Source of the DNA: Acidobacteriaceae bacterium
Lineage (GTDB): Bacteria > Acidobacteriota > Terriglobia > Terriglobales > Acidobacteriaceae
Length of the DNA: 64,000 nt
Assembly: GCA_903642225.1 (NCBI GenBank)
Contig: CAHJWI010000022.1
Location: 1 to 64,000, forward strand
Reading direction: 5' to 3'
Both the position numbers and the translations under genes were made by a program. The notes below the pieces were generated by a model that worked only from the letters and a program-made list of their open reading frames with translations, had not been told where the DNA came from and did not search any database. Below are positions 434 through 8,277 of this stretch, in pieces (the stretch's first letter is position 1; every line of letters starts with the position of its first letter).

Positions 434-2176
434 TTAGGCGGATCTGCGCGGCCAAAGGTGAACAACCTGCGCGCCGAATTGGGCGATCGCGTGCAGAATG
501 GAGCGGTGCGGCTGGATCTGATCTGCATCTACCTGGAAGCTTTGCGTGGCGGGATGTTCGGGTGCCTTGCAGCGAATGACCTTCAGTTCAAGCGGTGTTG
601 TGTCACGTAACGGCGTTTCGATTCGTGCGTCGGTGAGTGCGCGGTATGTCGCGATTGTTAAAAATTCAGAGGGCTGAAGAGCGACACGAACGGCATGGGC
701 ACGGTCAAACCTGGCCATCCAGTGACCGCTGGAGTCGGTATACAAGAGCTGATTGCCGACCGCGACAGCGGCACCTGCAACGGGGTTGCTGCCGTCGAGC
801 ACAGTGCCTTGCAGCCGGTACTTTGGCATGGATACTTGCAGCCGAGGACCGTTAGAGGAGGTGGTGTCGCCTGCACTTTCGAAGTCGTTGACGCTACCTT
901 CCCAGACGGAGGGAATGCCCGTGGCGCTGACGCGGGCGAGGCCAACGTCGGCATTGTGCACGTGCATGCGAAGTGCAACGGTAAGCACGCGGCGAAAGCC
1001 CGCCTGGGTGCCGAAGGGGATGTACGTCTCACCGTGGGAGAAGCTGAGGGAACCCCAGTTACCGTCGATTGTGCCTCCGACGTCTGCATGGGGTGCACCG
1101 CTGCCCAGTTGCATGCCGGTTCGCAGGCGCAGGTGGCGCACCACATCGCGGTCCGCGTCCAGTTGCAGGGTACTGGTGGTGCCTTGCAGATCGACGCGGC
1201 GTAAGACCATGGCCTGCGCGCCTGTTAGCCTGCGACGCCAGCTTCCAATCCAAACCAGGGAGTGGTCGTGCGCACTGCCGGTGCTGGAGCCAAGCAGGCG
1301 CACGCCGGCTCGGAAGTCGCCCAGGTATGCCGTCGCACCGGCTTCAAGCAGGGTGGAGCGTGCGCCGATGGTGGAGGGGGCGGGGCTGCTCGGCAGGTCG
1401 GTGGTGCCGGTGGCATACTCGTGGCGCGCCACGTCGACTGTGAGCCATTGCCGCAGGCGTTCGGACGCGGAGAGGTTGAGGCCGATGCGCTCGAGCTGCG
1501 AGATCTGAAAGCTGTTTTGTGGTTGCAGCTGCAGGTGGCCGCTGGTGCTGGATGCGTCGATGCGCCAGGTTTGCGCGACATGTTGGAAGCTGGCGCGCAG
1601 TACGGGTTTGCCGGCGCACTTGCCGGCGCTGAAGGCCAGCAGAGTCCGCGGGTGAAGGCGGACCTGGGCCGAAGCAATCATGGCGTGCTGCTCACCATGG
1701 ACCAGGAGGGTATGCCAGAGGACGCTGCCGGTGCGCACCGTGGAACTGGAGAGCAGCATCGGTTTTTCAGCAGAAACACCGGAGAAAAAGGCGTTGCCGT
1801 AGTTGACGCCACTGCGGCCCGCAAAGACGGCAATATTGCGGTCGGGGGAGCCGACTTGCAGCAGGGCACCGGTGGCGTAGACGCCGCGGTCGTTGCCGTC
1901 CAGGTCTGAGGGCAAGGCGAGTGAGGGATGGCTGTCGCCCAGGGTCAGGTGTACCGGACCGGAGGTCACCTCTCGGCTGAGACCGAGGTGCATGCCCTGC
2001 GCGGCACCCAGGCTTACGCGGCTTGTGGCGTTGTCGTCGTAATGGGTCAGGCTGGCGCCTTCCGTCCCGCTGATGGAACTGCCGAAACCGGACAGTTGCA
2101 TCACCTGTGCGGGCAGCCACGGCGCAATGCCGAGCGGCAGCACAGCAAGCAGGAAGGAGAGGCGCCGCAACTTCAT
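434..2176 (-). CDS. Outer-membrane beta-barrel protein with C-terminal carboxypeptidase-regulatory-like domain (mini-usher candidate)
   Basis: A 580-residue secreted protein. A signal peptide (residues 1-23, hydrophobic core then 'LPAQ') is followed by about 420 residues of alternating polar/hydrophobic, Gly/Ser/Thr-rich sequence with repeated 'V.LGAAQG', 'AVFAGRSGVNYG'-type strands, as in outer-membrane barrels. Residues about 460-530 ('YRLQGTVLDGSNPVAGAAV', then 'LLYTDSSGHW') look like a carboxypeptidase-regulatory-like beta sandwich, the fold of usher C-terminal domains. Its ATG overlaps the stop of the upstream chaperone gene (ATGA at 2173-2176), so the two are probably translationally coupled. 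Classical fimbrial ushers are about 800 residues or longer and carry N-terminal and plug domains; I see neither. A usher-like role is therefore inference from context, shape and the C-terminal domain. It could also be an unrelated porin-like barrel. Confidence 0.7.
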   Translation of the reverse strand: MKLRRLSFLLAVLPLGIAPWLPAQVMQLSGFGSSISGTEGASLTHYDDNATSRVSLGAAQGMHLGLSREVTSGPVHLTLGDSHPSLALPSDLDGNDRGVYATGALLQVGSPDRNIAVFAGRSGVNYGNAFFSGVSAEKPMLLSSSTVRTGSVLWHTLLVHGEQHAMIASAQVRLHPRTLLAFSAGKCAGKPVLRASFQHVAQTWRIDASSTSGHLQLQPQNSFQISQLERIGLNLSASERLRQWLTVDVARHEYATGTTDLPSSPAPSTIGARSTLLEAGATAYLGDFRAGVRLLGSSTGSAHDHSLVWIGSWRRRLTGAQAMVLRRVDLQGTTSTLQLDADRDVVRHLRLRTGMQLGSGAPHADVGGTIDGNWGSLSFSHGETYIPFGTQAGFRRVLTVALRMHVHNADVGLARVSATGIPSVWEGSVNDFESAGDTTSSNGPRLQVSMPKYRLQGTVLDGSNPVAGAAVAVGNQLLYTDSSGHWMARFDRAHAVRVALQPSEFLTIATYRALTDARIETPLRDTTPLELKVIRCKAPEHPATQSFQVDADQIQPHRSILHAIAQFGAQVVHLWPRRSA

Positions 2177-2919
2177 GGCAGTGCCTGTTCCACCGTGAAC
2201 TTTTCAAGATGCGCCCGCACCGCATCGGCCTTTTCGCCTTTGGGCAGGTCAAGAGAGAAGGCACGCACGCCGCCGGGCAACAGAGGAAAGCCGCCACCTG
2301 CCGATCGGTTCCTGCCATGCGACACGACGTCAAGCTCGTGCACACGCACCACATTGGCGCCGTCGTTGTGCAGCATGCCGCGGATCTGTGCGCCGTTCGT
2401 TTCCAGGCCGGTGAAGTGGACTTCGTGCGCGGAAACGGGTTGACGTGCAAGCAGGTAGACGGTGTGGGGCAGGCTGAGCTGCACGTTGAGGCCATTGCGC
2501 TTGGGCAAGCCGGAGAAGTTGGCATACACCGAAAACCACGCAGGGTAGTGGTCGGCGCTGGCCTTGTAATAGACCGTGCGCTGCTGGCGCGGCGGAACAC
2601 GCAGGCTCGTCTGGCTGAGTTCCAGGTGGATGTCTTTGCTCAGAGGGGTGAAGACGGCATTGCTGTCGGCATCGACTGCAAAGCTATGTGTGTCGATGGT
2701 GACGAAGAGCGGCGTGAGCCCGTCGTTGGTGACAAGGAAGCTGCCTTCTGCCGCCGCCGTGTACTGCACGACGGAGGGACTGACACCCTGAGCGCTCCCG
2801 GTCGCAACAGAGAGAAGTAGAAGCATGGCCGCGAGGAAAGACATGCGTGCGAAGACTGCCGCGCACGTCCATCGCGTTGCGGCTGTAGACGCAAGCCGGG
2901 TGAGAAGAACCTTGCTCAT
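2173..2919 (-). CDS. PapD-like periplasmic pilus chaperone
   Basis: A 248-residue protein with an exported N-terminus: a hydrophobic run around residues 27-43 ends 'ATGSAQG'. The body matches the fimbrial chaperone pattern: an early 'GSFLVTNDGLTPLFVTI' strand, 'LRVPPRQQRTVYYKA' (equivalent to the conserved basic F1-G1 region), 'WFSVYANFSG' and 'LPHTVYLL', then a second Ig-like half. Such chaperones cap pilin subunits in the periplasm and hand them to an usher. The start chosen (2919) overlaps the stop of the pilin-like gene by ATGA; an internal ATG at 2841 would give a more usual signal-peptide length. The gene sits between the subunit and barrel genes, as expected for a subunit-chaperone-usher order. 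The family assignment comes from motif and context recognition. Confidence 0.8.
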   Translation of the reverse strand: MSKVLLTRLASTAATRWTCAAVFARMSFLAAMLLLLSVATGSAQGVSPSVVQYTAAAEGSFLVTNDGLTPLFVTIDTHSFAVDADSNAVFTPLSKDIHLELSQTSLRVPPRQQRTVYYKASADHYPAWFSVYANFSGLPKRNGLNVQLSLPHTVYLLARQPVSAHEVHFTGLETNGAQIRGMLHNDGANVVRVHELDVVSHGRNRSAGGGFPLLPGGVRAFSLDLPKGEKADAVRAHLEKFTVEQALP

Positions 2920-3467
2920 ATGGCCTGCGCCTGGAAGTGCAGCGTTCCGGTGTAGGTGTCCGCCATCAACGACGAGCTGGGCGTGATGGTGAGCGTGATT
3001 GAGTCCGTGCGGGTTGTGACCGCATTGGCGGCGGAGATGAGAACGGAATAGACCGTGGCGGACGTGGACCCCGAGGTGAAGGGGCTCGCGCTGGTGAACG
3101 ATTGTGCAGCGCCACCGTTGACGCTTGCGGAGACGGCAGACGTTGGAACCAGCTGGCCGCTAAGGGTGCCGGTCATGGCGGCGGACGCACTGTCGAAGAA
3201 GGCGTACATCTTGACGGTCTGGCCAACTCCAAGATTCCATGCGCTGATCACGGAGATGGCCTGCGCAAGAGGCGCCGTGTTGGCGGTGCCGGCCGTGATA
3301 ACACCGAAGGCTACGGTGGGCACGGCGATGGTTGTTGTGAGTCCATTGGCGATGATGGCCGTGAGGGCGACATCGACCTTGGTGGACGTGTATGTGGTTG
3401 CCTGTGCGTTTACGAGGCACGAGATGGTGAACAGGCAAAGTACGAGGGGGCGAAGCGTACGGGACAT
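2916..3467 (-). CDS. Secreted pilin-like subunit, spore coat U (SCPU)-type
   Basis: A 183-residue protein with a clear signal peptide (residues 1-23, 'LCLFTISCLVNAQA'). The mature part is Thr/Ser/Ala-rich and strand-forming, and ends in an amphipathic 'YTGTLHFQAQAI', the type of C-terminal strand that chaperones recognise in SCPU/archaic chaperone-usher subunits. It is the first gene of a three-gene minus-strand unit: its TGA overlaps the ATG of the chaperone. There is no cysteine pair in the mature chain, which fits the archaic rather than the classical pilin type. It probably forms a surface fibre or coat, but only one subunit gene is present, so a tip adhesin would have to be encoded elsewhere or be missing. 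Confidence 0.72.
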   Translation of the reverse strand: MSRTLRPLVLCLFTISCLVNAQATTYTSTKVDVALTAIIANGLTTTIAVPTVAFGVITAGTANTAPLAQAISVISAWNLGVGQTVKMYAFFDSASAAMTGTLSGQLVPTSAVSASVNGGAAQSFTSASPFTSGSTSATVYSVLISAANAVTTRTDSITLTITPSSSLMADTYTGTLHFQAQAI

Positions 3468-3704: not shown

Positions 3705-6158
3705 CTAGCGTAGGTTGCTTTTGGCTCTGGTGGGTAGGGTAAAGAGGAAGCTGGCGCCGGTGCCTGGTTCGCTTTCGGCCCAGATGCGGCCGCCATGCTG
3801 CGAGACGATGGAGCGGCAGATGGCGAGGCCAAGGCCGGTACCGCCCATGGCGCGAGAGTCCGAAGCGTCCACCTGCTGGAAGCGGCCGAAAATGTGCTCG
3901 AGTTTATCCGGGGGGATGCCGCGGCCGGTGTCGTGGACCTCGAGCTGCGCTTCCGAGTCGCTGATGCGCCGGGTGGACAGGGTGATGACTCCGCCTGCGG
4001 GCGTAAATTTGAGGGCGTTGGAGATGAGGTTGGTGACGGTTTGGAGGATGCGGTCACCGTCGGCCCAGACGATGAGCCGCTCGAACTCGAAGTCGAAATC
4101 GATGTGTGCCTTTGCGGCCGAGGCACCGAGGAGTTCGGCGGCGTGACGCATAAGGGTGTGCGCTTCCACGTTGCTGTAGTGCAGCTCGGCCTTGCCGCTT
4201 CCGATGCGTTCGAGCTCAAGGATGTCGTTGACAAGCGAGACGAGACGGTCCGTGTTGCCGATGGCGATGGAGAGCATCTGCTGCTGCTTGTCAGGCCGGT
4301 TGACAAGTGCACCGGACGCGATGAGGCCGAGGGATGCGCGCATGCTGGTGAGCGGTGTACGCAGTTCGTGCGAGACGGTGGAGACGAACTCGTCCTTCAT
4401 GCGGTCGAGCGCGGCGCGTTCCGTGGTGTCGGTAAAGGCGACGACGATGCCGGTGGCCTGCCCCTCGCGGAAGATGGGGCAGGCGATGTAGTCGACGGGG
4501 AAGCTGGTGTTGTCCTTGCGCCAGAAGACCTCTGTGGAGACGCGGACGGGCTGGCCGGTCCGGGAAGAGTCGATGATGGGGCACTGGTGATTGGGGTAGG
4601 GCCGGCCGTCGGGGTAGCTATGGTGGGCGAGTGCGTGTATGTTCCTGCCGAGGATGCGGCTTTCGATCTCAGCTCTTGTGTAACCGAGCATTTGCGCGGC
4701 TGCGGGGTTGCAGACGGTGCAGATTCCGTCGAGGTCAAGGCCGAAGATGCCATCGCCGACGGAATCGAGAATGGAATTGCTTTGTTGTGTAAGGCGGAGG
4801 AGGCGATCTTCAGCGATGACCTTTTCGGTGATATCAACACCGAAGCACAGGGCATAGCGCTCGCCGTTGGTGGAGGCAAGCAGGCGGTTGCGGTAGGCGA
4901 GGATGTGGGTGGGGCCGTCGCGGTGGGTAAGCTCGAATGTACCCTGGGCTTCGCCGGTGCGCACCAGCTTGTTCAGGTACTCGGTGAAAACGCCGTGGTT
5001 GCTGGTGGTCATGAAGTCGGTAAGGCTGTGGCCGACCATCTGGTGCACGTTGTAGCCGAGGTTCTCTGCGCCGTAGCTGTTGAGGGAGAGCAGCCTGCCA
5101 TCGAGCGAGTGGGTGAAGACGGCTCCGAGTGAGCCTTCGATGAGGTGCCGGTAGCGGGACTCCGACTCGCGCAGAGTGCCTTCCGCTTCACGCTGCAGGG
5201 TGATGTCGATGCCGGTGGCGATGATGAAGGCGACATCCTTGTGGCCGTCGGTGAGGGCTGTGGCGGTCCACTGGATGAGGCGGTTGGATTTTTCGCGGGT
5301 CACCCAGCGGTCTTCATACTCATACGGGAACTTGCCGCTGCGCATGCGTGCGAAGCTTTGCTGCGATTTGACGCGGTCTTCGGGCGGTACGAGGGTGTCC
5401 CAGATGGTGTGCCCGACCACTTCTTCCACGGAACGGCCGGAGATGGTTTCGCAGATGCGATTGAAACGGACGACGCGGCCCGCGGTGTCGTAAACGATGA
5501 CAAGAGCGCCGATGGTGTCCAGGACGGCGGAGACGAAGTTGCGTTCGACGGTGAGAGCAGCTTCAACGCGTACGCGGGTGCGTGCCTCCTGTTCGTTGAG
5601 GCGGGTGTGCAGGCTGAGTTCAAGCCGCGTGATGACGGCGCGGGCGAGGGTGCGGAGGGTGTTGCCCTCAAGCTCGTTGAGCACACGCGCTTCCGTGGCG
5701 TAGACACAAAGGCAACCGACGGCGATGCCGTCTGCCCCGATGAGCGGTGCGCCGGCATAGAACTGGAAGGTGCGATCACCGACGACGATGCCTTTTTCCT
5801 TATACTCAGCGTCTTCGGACGCGTCGGGGATGGTGAAGAGCTCGGTACCGCGGACAGTTTCGTCGCAGGGCGATTGTGACCGCGGCATGTCGCGGCTGGT
5901 AATGCCGACGCGGGATTTGAACCAGATGACATCGCCGCGCACAAAGGTGATGGCGGCTGCATCGGCCTCGCACACCTGGGCCGTCAGCAGGGTGAGCTCG
6001 TCCAGGCCGAAGTCGCTCGCGTTGTCGAGGCTTTCAAGCGTTTCCAGGACCCGCGGACGTGGGATCTCCCGGTGCGGTGCGAAAGGCATGAGAGCCGCCG
6101 GCACGGAGACGCGCGATGCGCCGATCGGCGTGGACGGGGTGATGGTGCGGGTCGACAT
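3705..6158 (-). CDS. GAF/multi-PAS sensor histidine kinase
   Basis: An 817-residue soluble-looking histidine kinase without obvious membrane spans. Order: GAF domain (about 30-185), a PAS domain starting after 'FVSAVLDTIGALVIVYD' (about 205-320), a second PAS ('YRHLIEGSLGAVFTHSLDG', about 330-445), a third PAS ('ILDSVGDGIFGLDLDG', about 455-575), then HisKA with the phospho-acceptor in 'SHELRTPL' (His597) and an HATPase domain with N-box 'NLISNALKF' (about 705-715), 'DTGRGIPPDKLEHIF' and 'GGTGLGLAI'. It ends directly after the HATPase domain, so there is no fused receiver. No response regulator gene lies next to it, which makes it an orphan kinase here. The ligand cannot be read from the sequence; the PAS/GAF stack suggests an intracellular redox, light or small-molecule signal. 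Confidence 0.93.
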   Translation of the reverse strand: MSTRTITPSTPIGASRVSVPAALMPFAPHREIPRPRVLETLESLDNASDFGLDELTLLTAQVCEADAAAITFVRGDVIWFKSRVGITSRDMPRSQSPCDETVRGTELFTIPDASEDAEYKEKGIVVGDRTFQFYAGAPLIGADGIAVGCLCVYATEARVLNELEGNTLRTLARAVITRLELSLHTRLNEQEARTRVRVEAALTVERNFVSAVLDTIGALVIVYDTAGRVVRFNRICETISGRSVEEVVGHTIWDTLVPPEDRVKSQQSFARMRSGKFPYEYEDRWVTREKSNRLIQWTATALTDGHKDVAFIIATGIDITLQREAEGTLRESESRYRHLIEGSLGAVFTHSLDGRLLSLNSYGAENLGYNVHQMVGHSLTDFMTTSNHGVFTEYLNKLVRTGEAQGTFELTHRDGPTHILAYRNRLLASTNGERYALCFGVDITEKVIAEDRLLRLTQQSNSILDSVGDGIFGLDLDGICTVCNPAAAQMLGYTRAEIESRILGRNIHALAHHSYPDGRPYPNHQCPIIDSSRTGQPVRVSTEVFWRKDNTSFPVDYIACPIFREGQATGIVVAFTDTTERAALDRMKDEFVSTVSHELRTPLTSMRASLGLIASGALVNRPDKQQQMLSIAIGNTDRLVSLVNDILELERIGSGKAELHYSNVEAHTLMRHAAELLGASAAKAHIDFDFEFERLIVWADGDRILQTVTNLISNALKFTPAGGVITLSTRRISDSEAQLEVHDTGRGIPPDKLEHIFGRFQQVDASDSRAMGGTGLGLAICRSIVSQHGGRIWAESEPGTGASFLFTLPTRAKSNLR

Positions 6159-6189: not shown

Positions 6190-6753
6190 TTAGAACTTTG
6201 GTTCTTCGGCGCTGGCGTCCAGCGCTACCTTCCACTTGCCGTCGGCCTGCCTCTTCCAGACGGTGATGTAACGTCCGCCCAGAACCGTCGGATTGCCGCC
6301 TGCGGGGTGGTATGTCGTGGCATCGTAATGACCCCAGGTAAATCCCATGTCGCCGCTATCGCTCATTTTGCCGCCCATGGGTGTCCATTGGAGTTTGTAC
6401 TCTTCGGGCTTCCAGCGGGCGTGGTCCATGATGCCGGTCTTGTTGAGCACGGGTGCCTTGCCGTTGCTGAGCGTGACGGCATCGTCGGCGAACCAACTGG
6501 CAAAGGCGGCGCCTCCACCCTTTTCGACGGATTGGCTGAACTGGCCATCGAGGGTGAGCAACTGCAGCACCTGAGGAGAGAAAGTGGGAAGAGGGCCTTG
6601 ATCGGGGATGCGCGTGGGTGCATTCGGCGGAAGGAAGCTGCCGGTGGCCGGTGTAAGAGCGCCCGGTGGTGGCGTGAGACCGACCTGTGCCTGCGCGTGG
6701 CCGGTGTGGTGTAACGCGGCAAACGTGGCAAGGGCTAAGATGGGGATTCGCAT
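6190..6753 (-). CDS. Secreted SnoaL/DUF4440-like (NTF2-fold) protein
   Basis: I chose the start at 6753 ('MRIPILALATFAALHHTGHAQAQ') because it gives a clean signal peptide; the open frame continues upstream but without sensible sequence. The 187-residue product contains an NTF2-like pattern: 'LLTLDGQFSQSVEKGGGAAFASWFADDAVTL', 'GHYDATTYH' and a C-terminal 'GRYITVWKRQADGKWKVALD' that is typical of DUF4440/SnoaL-like proteins. These are small cone-shaped domains of varied or unknown function, and some are periplasmic enzymes or binding proteins. It stands alone, divergent from the symporter gene. No specific substrate can be assigned. Confidence 0.8.
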   Translation of the reverse strand: MRIPILALATFAALHHTGHAQAQVGLTPPPGALTPATGSFLPPNAPTRIPDQGPLPTFSPQVLQLLTLDGQFSQSVEKGGGAAFASWFADDAVTLSNGKAPVLNKTGIMDHARWKPEEYKLQWTPMGGKMSDSGDMGFTWGHYDATTYHPAGGNPTVLGGRYITVWKRQADGKWKVALDASAEEPKF

Positions 6754-6876
6754 CCGTAAATACACTGCTATCACGCTACTTACCCAGGGTGTGTCTGTGA
6801 TGAGTGTGTACCGAAACTGTTGCAGTGGCAACTGCCGAAACCAAGCCAGATGTACCAAGAAGGGACCGCGCCGCAC

Positions 6877-8277
6877 ATGGTGAACGATTGGTGGCGTCGA
6901 GTTTTACCTGTCGCATGCTTGTTGGTGTACGGCGCGGGTGTTGCGCTGTTGTTTGCCGGGAAGCATGCTTTGCAGGTTGCCGCGGCGGGGCTGTGCGTGC
7001 GGCTGCTGGGCGACGGGCTGCTCCTGCTGTGGGTGGGCTTGCGCTGGAGGAGCCTGACGGGGCTGATCCTGGTGGGAATGCTGGTGGGCGTGCATGTGGG
7101 GATCGATGCGCCGGCGTTGGCCGTGAACCTGCATTTTTTGAGTGATATCTTTTTGCGGCTGGTGAAAACAATTGTGGCACCGCTGATCCTGGTGACCCTG
7201 ATCAGCGGGATAGCCGGGCATGGCGACCTGAGGAGCGTGGGGCGCATGGGATGGAAGAGCCTCTTGTACTTTGAGGTGCTGACGACGGTGGCTCTGGTGC
7301 TGGGACTGGCGGCGGCCAACCTGGCGCATGCCGGGGATGGGCTGGTTTTGCCGCCGGACCTGCGGGGAGATTTAGGAGCGACCGCTCCGCTGCACTGGCA
7401 GCAGTTCCTGGTGCAGGTGTTTCCGGAGAACCTGGCAAAGAGCATTGCCGAGGGGCAGGTGCTGCAGGTGGCGGTGTTCGCGGTCATCTTTGGGCTTGGA
7501 CTTGCAATGGTTTCCAGGGAGAAGGCCACACCGCTGCTGCGGCTGACGGAGAGCATGACCGAGGTGATGTTTCGGTTTACCAACCTCGTGATGTATCTGG
7601 CACCGGCGGCGGTGCTGGCGGCCATTGCATATACCGTTGCGCGGCTGGGGCCGGGTGTGCTCCTTCACCTGGGCAAGCTGCTGGGCGCGTTTTACGTGGC
7701 GGCGGCGGTGTTTGTGGGTGGTGTGCTTGTACCTGTGGCTCTGCTGGCGAAGGTACCCTTGCGCCGGTTTGCCCAGCATGTGAGCGGGCCGGCGGCGATT
7801 GCATTTGCGACGGCGGCAAGTGAGGCCGCTCTGCCGCGCGCGATGGAGGAGATGGAGGAGTTTGGGGTGCCGCGCAGGGTGTTGGCGTTTGTGATTCCTG
7901 CGGGATATTCCTTCAACCTGGATGGGTCGACCTTGTACCTGGCGATGGCGATGGTATTTGTGGCGCAGGTGGCGAAGGTGCAGCTTGGTTTCGGGCAGCA
8001 GGCCGTGATGCTGGGCACGCTGATGCTGGCTTCAAAAGGTGTGGCGGGTGTGCCGCGGGCGGTGCTGGTGGTGATGCTTGCGACGGCTTCGACACTGCAT
8101 CTGCCAAGTGAGCCGATCCTTGTGCTGCTGGGGGTGGATGCACTAATGGACATGGGACGGACGGCAATTAACGTGATTGGCAATTGCCTGGCGAGCGCGG
8201 TGGTGGCACGGTGGGAGGGCGTGTTTGGGGAGGAGATACCCTCAGCGGCGGTGCTGGCCGAGGATGCGCTGCCTTGA
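6877..8277 (+). CDS. Dicarboxylate/amino acid:cation symporter (DAACS family)
   Basis: An integral membrane secondary transporter that couples uptake of dicarboxylates or acidic amino acids to Na+ or H+. Family hallmarks are visible: 'FLRLVKTIVAPLILVTLISGI', the Ser/Ala-rich reentrant loop 'ATAASEAALPRAM' and 'VIPAGYSFNLDGSTLYL', the latter containing the substrate and ion-binding residues of the GltP/DctA family. The frame is open from 6820; I prefer 6877 ('MVNDWWRR') because a purine-rich AAGAAGGGA lies upstream and the extra residues look unstructured, but 6820 and 6850 are possible. About 465 residues. The N-terminus carries two additional hydrophobic segments before the usual first conserved segment, so topology may differ from GltP. 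The exact substrate is not predictable. Confidence 0.88.
   Translation: MVNDWWRRVLPVACLLVYGAGVALLFAGKHALQVAAAGLCVRLLGDGLLLLWVGLRWRSLTGLILVGMLVGVHVGIDAPALAVNLHFLSDIFLRLVKTIVAPLILVTLISGIAGHGDLRSVGRMGWKSLLYFEVLTTVALVLGLAAANLAHAGDGLVLPPDLRGDLGATAPLHWQQFLVQVFPENLAKSIAEGQVLQVAVFAVIFGLGLAMVSREKATPLLRLTESMTEVMFRFTNLVMYLAPAAVLAAIAYTVARLGPGVLLHLGKLLGAFYVAAAVFVGGVLVPVALLAKVPLRRFAQHVSGPAAIAFATAASEAALPRAMEEMEEFGVPRRVLAFVIPAGYSFNLDGSTLYLAMAMVFVAQVAKVQLGFGQQAVMLGTLMLASKGVAGVPRAVLVVMLATASTLHLPSEPILVLLGVDALMDMGRTAINVIGNCLASAVVARWEGVFGEEIPSAAVLAEDALP

Follow-up and report, generated by a model that had tools for sequence, protein, structure and literature searches.

The stretch of DNA analyzed here (the window) comprises 64,000 nucleotides at positions 1 to 64,000 of contig CAHJWI010000022.1 from an Acidobacteriaceae bacterium (GenBank assembly GCA_903642225.1). 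Its minus strand carries three adjacent genes, which code for a secreted pilin-like subunit (S1), a PapD-like periplasmic chaperone, and a usher-like outer-membrane barrel protein (Table 1). We consider it probable that this operon is a minimal chaperone-usher (CU)-like system that assembles and exports S1. The original prediction, made from the sequence, had proposed such a minimal usher, and this interpretation is now supported by profile searches, structure prediction, and co-occurrence of the three genes across genomes.

A conserved three-gene operon

Profiles of the three families, from which the window and its nearest relative (L002) had been left out, matched exactly the three window open reading frames (ORFs), with E-values of 3.3e-45 for the barrel protein, 3.7e-67 for the chaperone, and 1.6e-31 for the subunit. 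The trio therefore consists of genuine members of conserved families, and the ORFs and their subunit-chaperone-barrel order stand as first described. Searches of the three window proteins against Pfam and NCBIfam returned no model at a meaningful score.

Approximately 30 homologues of the barrel protein, mostly 18-60% identical to a central member, were identified in genomes of the same genus, family, and class. In all Acidobacteriota loci whose upstream sequence extends far enough (31/31; L023, which lies at a contig end, is outside this count), the S1, chaperone, and barrel genes occur in the same order on one strand, which is the linkage of subunit, chaperone, and outer-membrane platform genes expected of a CU system. 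In 18 of these loci, the called ORFs of chaperone and barrel overlap. In a separate genome collection, partly sharing its genomes with the first set, the same arrangement was found in 10/10 loci, including those of Granulicella and Edaphobacter. Barrel genes without partners were seen only as short, apparently decayed C-terminal remnants lacking both chaperone and subunit (L075 4779-5258 and L079 640-891). A phylum-wide sample contained no trio member outside the family of the window genome, a class-wide search added further families of the same class, and the viral contigs searched contained no relatives. Judged from these sequences, the three genes are passed on together across this class of soil bacteria.

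The window genome, which is 94% complete, has one copy of the trio and lacks any further chaperone or subunit belonging to these families. It also has no usher of the PF00577 family, which is present in 9/199 genomes of the phylum. True archaic CU loci with SCPU subunits (L040 and L052) also occur in the phylum.

Table 1. Coordinates of the operon and its features in the window
Feature	Position	Strand	Basis
S1, secreted pilin-like subunit, 183 amino acids (aa)	2916..3467	-	ORF and signal peptide, leave-out family profile, AlphaFold2 model, structural matches
PapD-like periplasmic chaperone, 248 aa; alternative start ~2844	2173..2919	-	hhalign
Usher-like outer-membrane barrel protein, 580 aa	434..2176	-	family profile, AlphaFold2 model of L042, Foldseek
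ATGA overlap, S1 stop / chaperone start	2916..2919	-	sequence
ATGA overlap, chaperone stop / barrel start	2173..2176	-	sequence
Putative N-terminal donor strand of S1 (V-x-L-x-A-x-I in the window)	3351..3371	-	
Chaperone stretch GLNVQLSLPHTVYL, aligned to the G1 donor strand of CsuC-type chaperones	2449..2490	-	
Barrel protein signal peptide, residues 1-23	2108..2176	-	sequence
Barrel region, ~24 predicted strands, without inserted plug	917..2107	-	DSSP of AlphaFold2 model
Single C-terminal transthyretin-like (carboxypeptidase-regulatory-like) domain	557..823	-	alignment to PF13620-matching relatives

Both ATGA overlaps that had been noted at the gene junctions are present in the sequence. The one between S1 and chaperone is less certain than the one between chaperone and barrel because its start gives the chaperone a leader of 43 residues, which is unusually long; a start at the in-frame ATG of residue 26 (the alternative start in Table 1) would produce a normal signal peptide. 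Flanking genes beyond the trio mostly differ between loci. In the window, a GAF-PAS sensor histidine kinase gene (3705-6158) adjoins the operon, and a similar gene is found in a different orientation in the nearest relative (L068 7442-9862); this neighbor was not seen in the other loci examined.

The outer-membrane barrel protein

Structures were predicted for window S1 and for the barrel protein of a relative, L042. The AlphaFold2 model of the latter, based on an alignment with nine other members including that of the window, had a mean predicted local distance difference test score (pLDDT) of 67.7 and a predicted template modeling score of 0.58. Assignment by DSSP gave 24-25 predicted strands in residues 25-415 (strands 1-24 in 25-403), followed by one C-terminal beta domain (residues ~454-540). 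The 24-stranded barrel of ushers is thus seen in the model, as a predicted count at moderate model confidence, and of the two usher C-terminal domains, CTD1 and CTD2, the protein has one. The limits of the barrel region in the window were carried over from this model by alignment and are approximate.

The N-terminal and plug domains of ushers had been reported missing, and the model agrees. Its first predicted strand, also according to the alignment, directly follows the signal peptide, leaving no room for an usher N-terminal domain; Gln24, the next residue after the signal peptide, is invariant in 29 members. An immunoglobulin (Ig)-like plug domain needs approximately 80 residues, and since successive barrel strands are at most 18 residues apart (216-233), no plug is inserted. 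A loop at residues 124-139 of the model (sPFF..A.A..PAG) is conserved and poorly predicted.

When the model was compared with PDB structures by Foldseek, ranks 1-12 were all FimD and PapC ushers (E-values of 3.9e-10 to 1.7e-6), and the best non-usher barrel followed at 5.2e-6. In VIA-align, the translocation domain of FimD matched with a Z score of 17.7 over 333 residues (root-mean-square deviation (rmsd) 4.7), and the matches to whole ushers covered about 400 residues, including the C-terminal domain, up to FimD residue ~751. With this strand number and these matches, the protein does not look like a closed porin of 8 to 18 strands. Generic barrel matches to OprD-type porins would fit an ordinary porin or substrate channel that neighbors the chaperone-subunit pair by chance, but they span ~260 residues versus 333-410 for ushers, and a chance neighbor is hard to reconcile with the invariant order in all 31 loci or the frequent overlap of its gene with that of the chaperone. 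We regard this explanation as very improbable and rejected it on the grounds of linkage and strand count.

Sequence comparisons place the protein outside known ushers. PF00577 did not match the window barrel protein or 28 relatives at E-values up to 0.1, as expected for such a protein. In PDB sequence searches with the window protein and the family profiles, the sole match at 0.001 or below was that of the N-terminal carboxypeptidase-regulatory-like domain of SusC to the C-terminal domain (0.0008), and the remaining matches look like chance. Regional hhalign comparisons with ushers scored 17.5 for a GD-motif region and 19.8 for the C-terminal region, versus 16.4 and 15.8 for the best shuffled controls; a GD motif common to both is unsupported, as the regional scores are only slightly above shuffled ones. 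The estimate that the protein is 200 or more residues below ordinary ushers was close: the true acidobacterial ushers found are mostly 760-890 aa, making the barrel protein ~180-300 residues shorter than most of them.

The carboxypeptidase-regulatory-like domain proposed for the C-terminus went undetected in the window protein itself and is recognized through the aligned family, in which 28/29 members match PF13620 (CarboxypepD_reg) in this domain. CooC_C, the C-terminal domain of alternative ushers, was matched weakly by 6/29 members (best E-value 0.0014), and CarboxypepD_reg fits better. Two barrel proteins, L007 1099-3150 and L008 1072-3120, have a C-terminal SPOR domain (E-value 5.5e-19). 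Since SPOR is a periplasmic peptidoglycan-binding domain, we infer that the C-terminal domain of the barrel protein lies on the periplasmic side, as in ushers.

In another class of the phylum, a PapD-like chaperone gene adjoins a gene for a different barrel (L067 4818-7247, genome G499; 809 aa ORF), which ends in two carboxypeptidase-regulatory-like domains, scores only 6.5 bits against the window barrel family, and is possibly a second usher-like barrel.

The barrel could also be an unrelated outer-membrane protein recruited by the PapD-like chaperone and pilin, usher-like in function and differing from ushers in ancestry only. The lack of sequence similarity to ushers, the better recognition of its C-terminal domain as CarboxypepD_reg, and the pairing of chaperone and marginally related barrel in L067 are all compatible with such a replacement. 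However, the structures that best match barrel and C-terminal domain together are those of ushers, the strand number is ~24, and weak CooC_C matches occur, and on balance we find a non-homologous origin rather unlikely.

The chaperone

The PapD-like character of the second gene product was borne out by profile comparison. Alignment of the chaperone family by hhalign to usher-adjacent chaperones (L040, L041, L053, and L055) gave a probability of 98.3 (E-value 1.3e-14). L040 and L041 had originally been found with the trio's own chaperone profile; L040, which has a true usher as its neighbor, matches both PapD_N and CsuC. With L053 and L055 only, which were chosen as usher neighbors, the probability was 91.6 (E-value 8.2e-7), and column-shuffled controls gave 0.8 or less. 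These profile comparisons relate the chaperone to the archaic chaperones of the PapD type. PF00345 does not match the family.

The stretch resembling the G1 donor strand was aligned via the G1 strand of L040, which matches CsuC. In a 29-member alignment, Leu150, His152, and Tyr155 of this stretch are invariant, and Pro151 and Thr153 are nearly so. In two species (L073 4102-6499 and L074 3390-5941) the chaperone has a single domain (157 and 175 aa), stops after the G1-like stretch, and has added cysteines; the barrel protein is shorter too (470-486 aa). A sequencing error is argued against by the presence of the same reduced form in both species.

Subunits S1 and S2

The AlphaFold2 model of window S1 (pLDDT 82.8) shows a beta sandwich that begins at approximately residue 20, and the first 20 residues are outside any strand. 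CU pilins were the top 5 and most of 50 rows among its structural matches and aligned from residue ~20 on: the CsuE pilin domain (Z score 7.9, rmsd 2.9, 106 residues), FimF (7.6), CsuA/B (7.5), FimG (7.3), and PapA (7.3). Foldseek alone found nothing below 0.001. Four alternating hydrophobic positions are present at the S1 N-terminus in 28/31 proteins and proline in 0/31 (alignment-based counts), with the pattern V-x-L-x-A-x-L in most relatives. Model and sequence pattern together point to the incomplete Ig fold and N-terminal donor strand of CU pilins. The description of S1 as SCPU-like holds for the fold and has no support in sequence: hhalign of the subunit family against SCPU-type subunits of true usher loci gave a probability of 1.2, and mature window S1 has no cysteine, so the conserved cysteines of SCPU are absent.

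That only one subunit gene is present is correct for the window genome, in which no S2 start was found in the 433 bases between the barrel stop and the contig start. Many relatives carry a second subunit, S2, downstream and last in the operon. Proline is found in the donor stretch of 12/14 S2 proteins, none of which keeps the full donor pattern; examples are L010 912-1481, L044 6613-7185, and L016 936-1478, with proline(s), often as R/K-P-x-P, replacing the donor strand. Because these prolines sit where the donor strand should be, S2 is likely, from its sequence, to be a tip or initiating subunit. The downstream subunits of L019 and L021, which have no proline there and retain the four hydrophobic positions, may belong to a different type. 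In L047, a convergent gene directly after the barrel (6612-7169, minus strand) weakly matches the subunit profile (E-value 7.5e-5 in a two-protein search).

Export of S1 as monomers or as a loose surface coat, with no fiber formed by donor-strand exchange, is a further alternative. The single subunit gene of the window genome, with no S2 or adhesin beside it, is in keeping with it, as is the fact that no filament has been observed. On the other hand, the donor-like N-terminus, conserved in S1, unpaired in its model, and lost in S2, makes sense only with linked subunits, and we consider such export improbable.

Proposed mechanism and points against it

If the trio is a CU-like system, S1 would cross into the periplasm via the Sec pathway without the last strand of its Ig-like fold. 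The PapD-like chaperone would lend a strand to S1 and hand it to the outer-membrane barrel, where it may dock or be recruited at the one C-terminal domain or at the rim of the barrel. The N-terminal extension of an incoming subunit (V-x-L-x-A-x-L/I) would displace the chaperone from the preceding one by donor-strand exchange, and the growing fiber would exit through the ~24-strand barrel. Where present, S2 with its proline-blocked N-terminus would start the fiber as its tip. Export, polymerization, docking, and the tip role are thus proposed from genes and models.

Several observations weigh against this interpretation. Usher N-terminal and plug domains are regarded as central to the recruitment of subunits and the gating of the pore, and our model leaves unexplained how subunits are recruited without the former and how the pore is sealed without the latter. 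The barrel family shows no convincing similarity to true acidobacterial ushers by hhalign (whole-length probability 0.4). Beta-barrels match each other easily, and porins reach a Z score of 15.9 over ~260 residues. The modeled L042 protein is only 19% identical to the window barrel protein, and its pLDDT of 67.7 includes poorly predicted first strands and linker (402-452). For S1, all structural matches have Z scores below 8, so its likeness to pilins rests on their consistency and not on one score. The chaperone departs from known CU chaperones at functional positions. Pro59 of CsuC is the proline invariant in CU chaperones, and Arg89, Tyr196, and Arg174 are the carboxylate anchors in archaic and alternative chaperones (PMC4654587). 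In a distant alignment, the Pro59 position is occupied by Gln104 in the window and by Met in most relatives, Arg89 aligns to Ser130, which is not conserved in the family, and Tyr196 aligns to ~Phe211/Pro212; the invariant Arg192 may correspond to Arg174. Since neither the proline nor the Arg89 and Tyr196 anchors are conserved, the chaperone represents a divergent branch.

With these points considered, the trio would still work as a CU system by its anatomy, though the barrel protein lacks the sequence and domains of ushers and the chaperone lacks the anchors. That it constitutes a fourth CU-like lineage besides the classical, alternative, and archaic ones, with a platform that consists of only a barrel plus a single C-terminal domain and may be a non-homologous usher, and with a single-domain chaperone in some species, is in our judgment an evenly balanced proposition.

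Significance and comparison with known systems

The trio appears to be a minimal, undescribed form of the CU pathway; the literature searched, with most subscription journals outside its reach, contained no paper describing such a system. If our interpretation is correct, a platform lacking N-terminal and plug domains, which a bacterial class retains together with its chaperone and pilin, would reveal what the pathway can do without, and would offer a small system for testing how fibers are started, fed, and sealed. Donor-less S2 subunits and single-domain chaperones would be naturally truncated versions of this machine. None of these proteins would be named as a CU component by annotation that relies on Pfam or NCBIfam.

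Among known systems, the archaic (sigma) CU pili, represented by Csu of Acinetobacter baumannii, share the subunit-chaperone-usher order with the trio; a tip-like subunit, if there is one, comes last. The S1 fold is closest to the CsuE pilin domain and near CsuA/B, and the chaperone profile is related to the CsuC type. Unlike Csu, the trio has no PF00577 usher, no N-terminal domain or plug, one C-terminal domain, and subunits without the SCPU cysteine pattern; unlike CsuC, its chaperone lacks, by alignment, Arg89, Tyr196, and the proline at position 59. The barrel protein resembles the alternative (alpha) ushers CooC and CfaC in the weak CooC_C matches of its C-terminal domain (6/29 members) and differs from them in having no usher barrel match and a C-terminal domain better fitted by CarboxypepD_reg. 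PapC has five domains: an N-terminal domain, a 24-strand barrel, a plug between strands 6 and 7, CTD1, and CTD2 (PMC4356140). Unlike ushers of this type, the barrel protein has two domains and shows no sequence similarity to them. Yet, as in the classical ushers FimD and PapC (3rfz, 3ohn, and 2vqi), its best structural matches, a C-terminal beta domain comes after its predicted barrel of ~24 strands.

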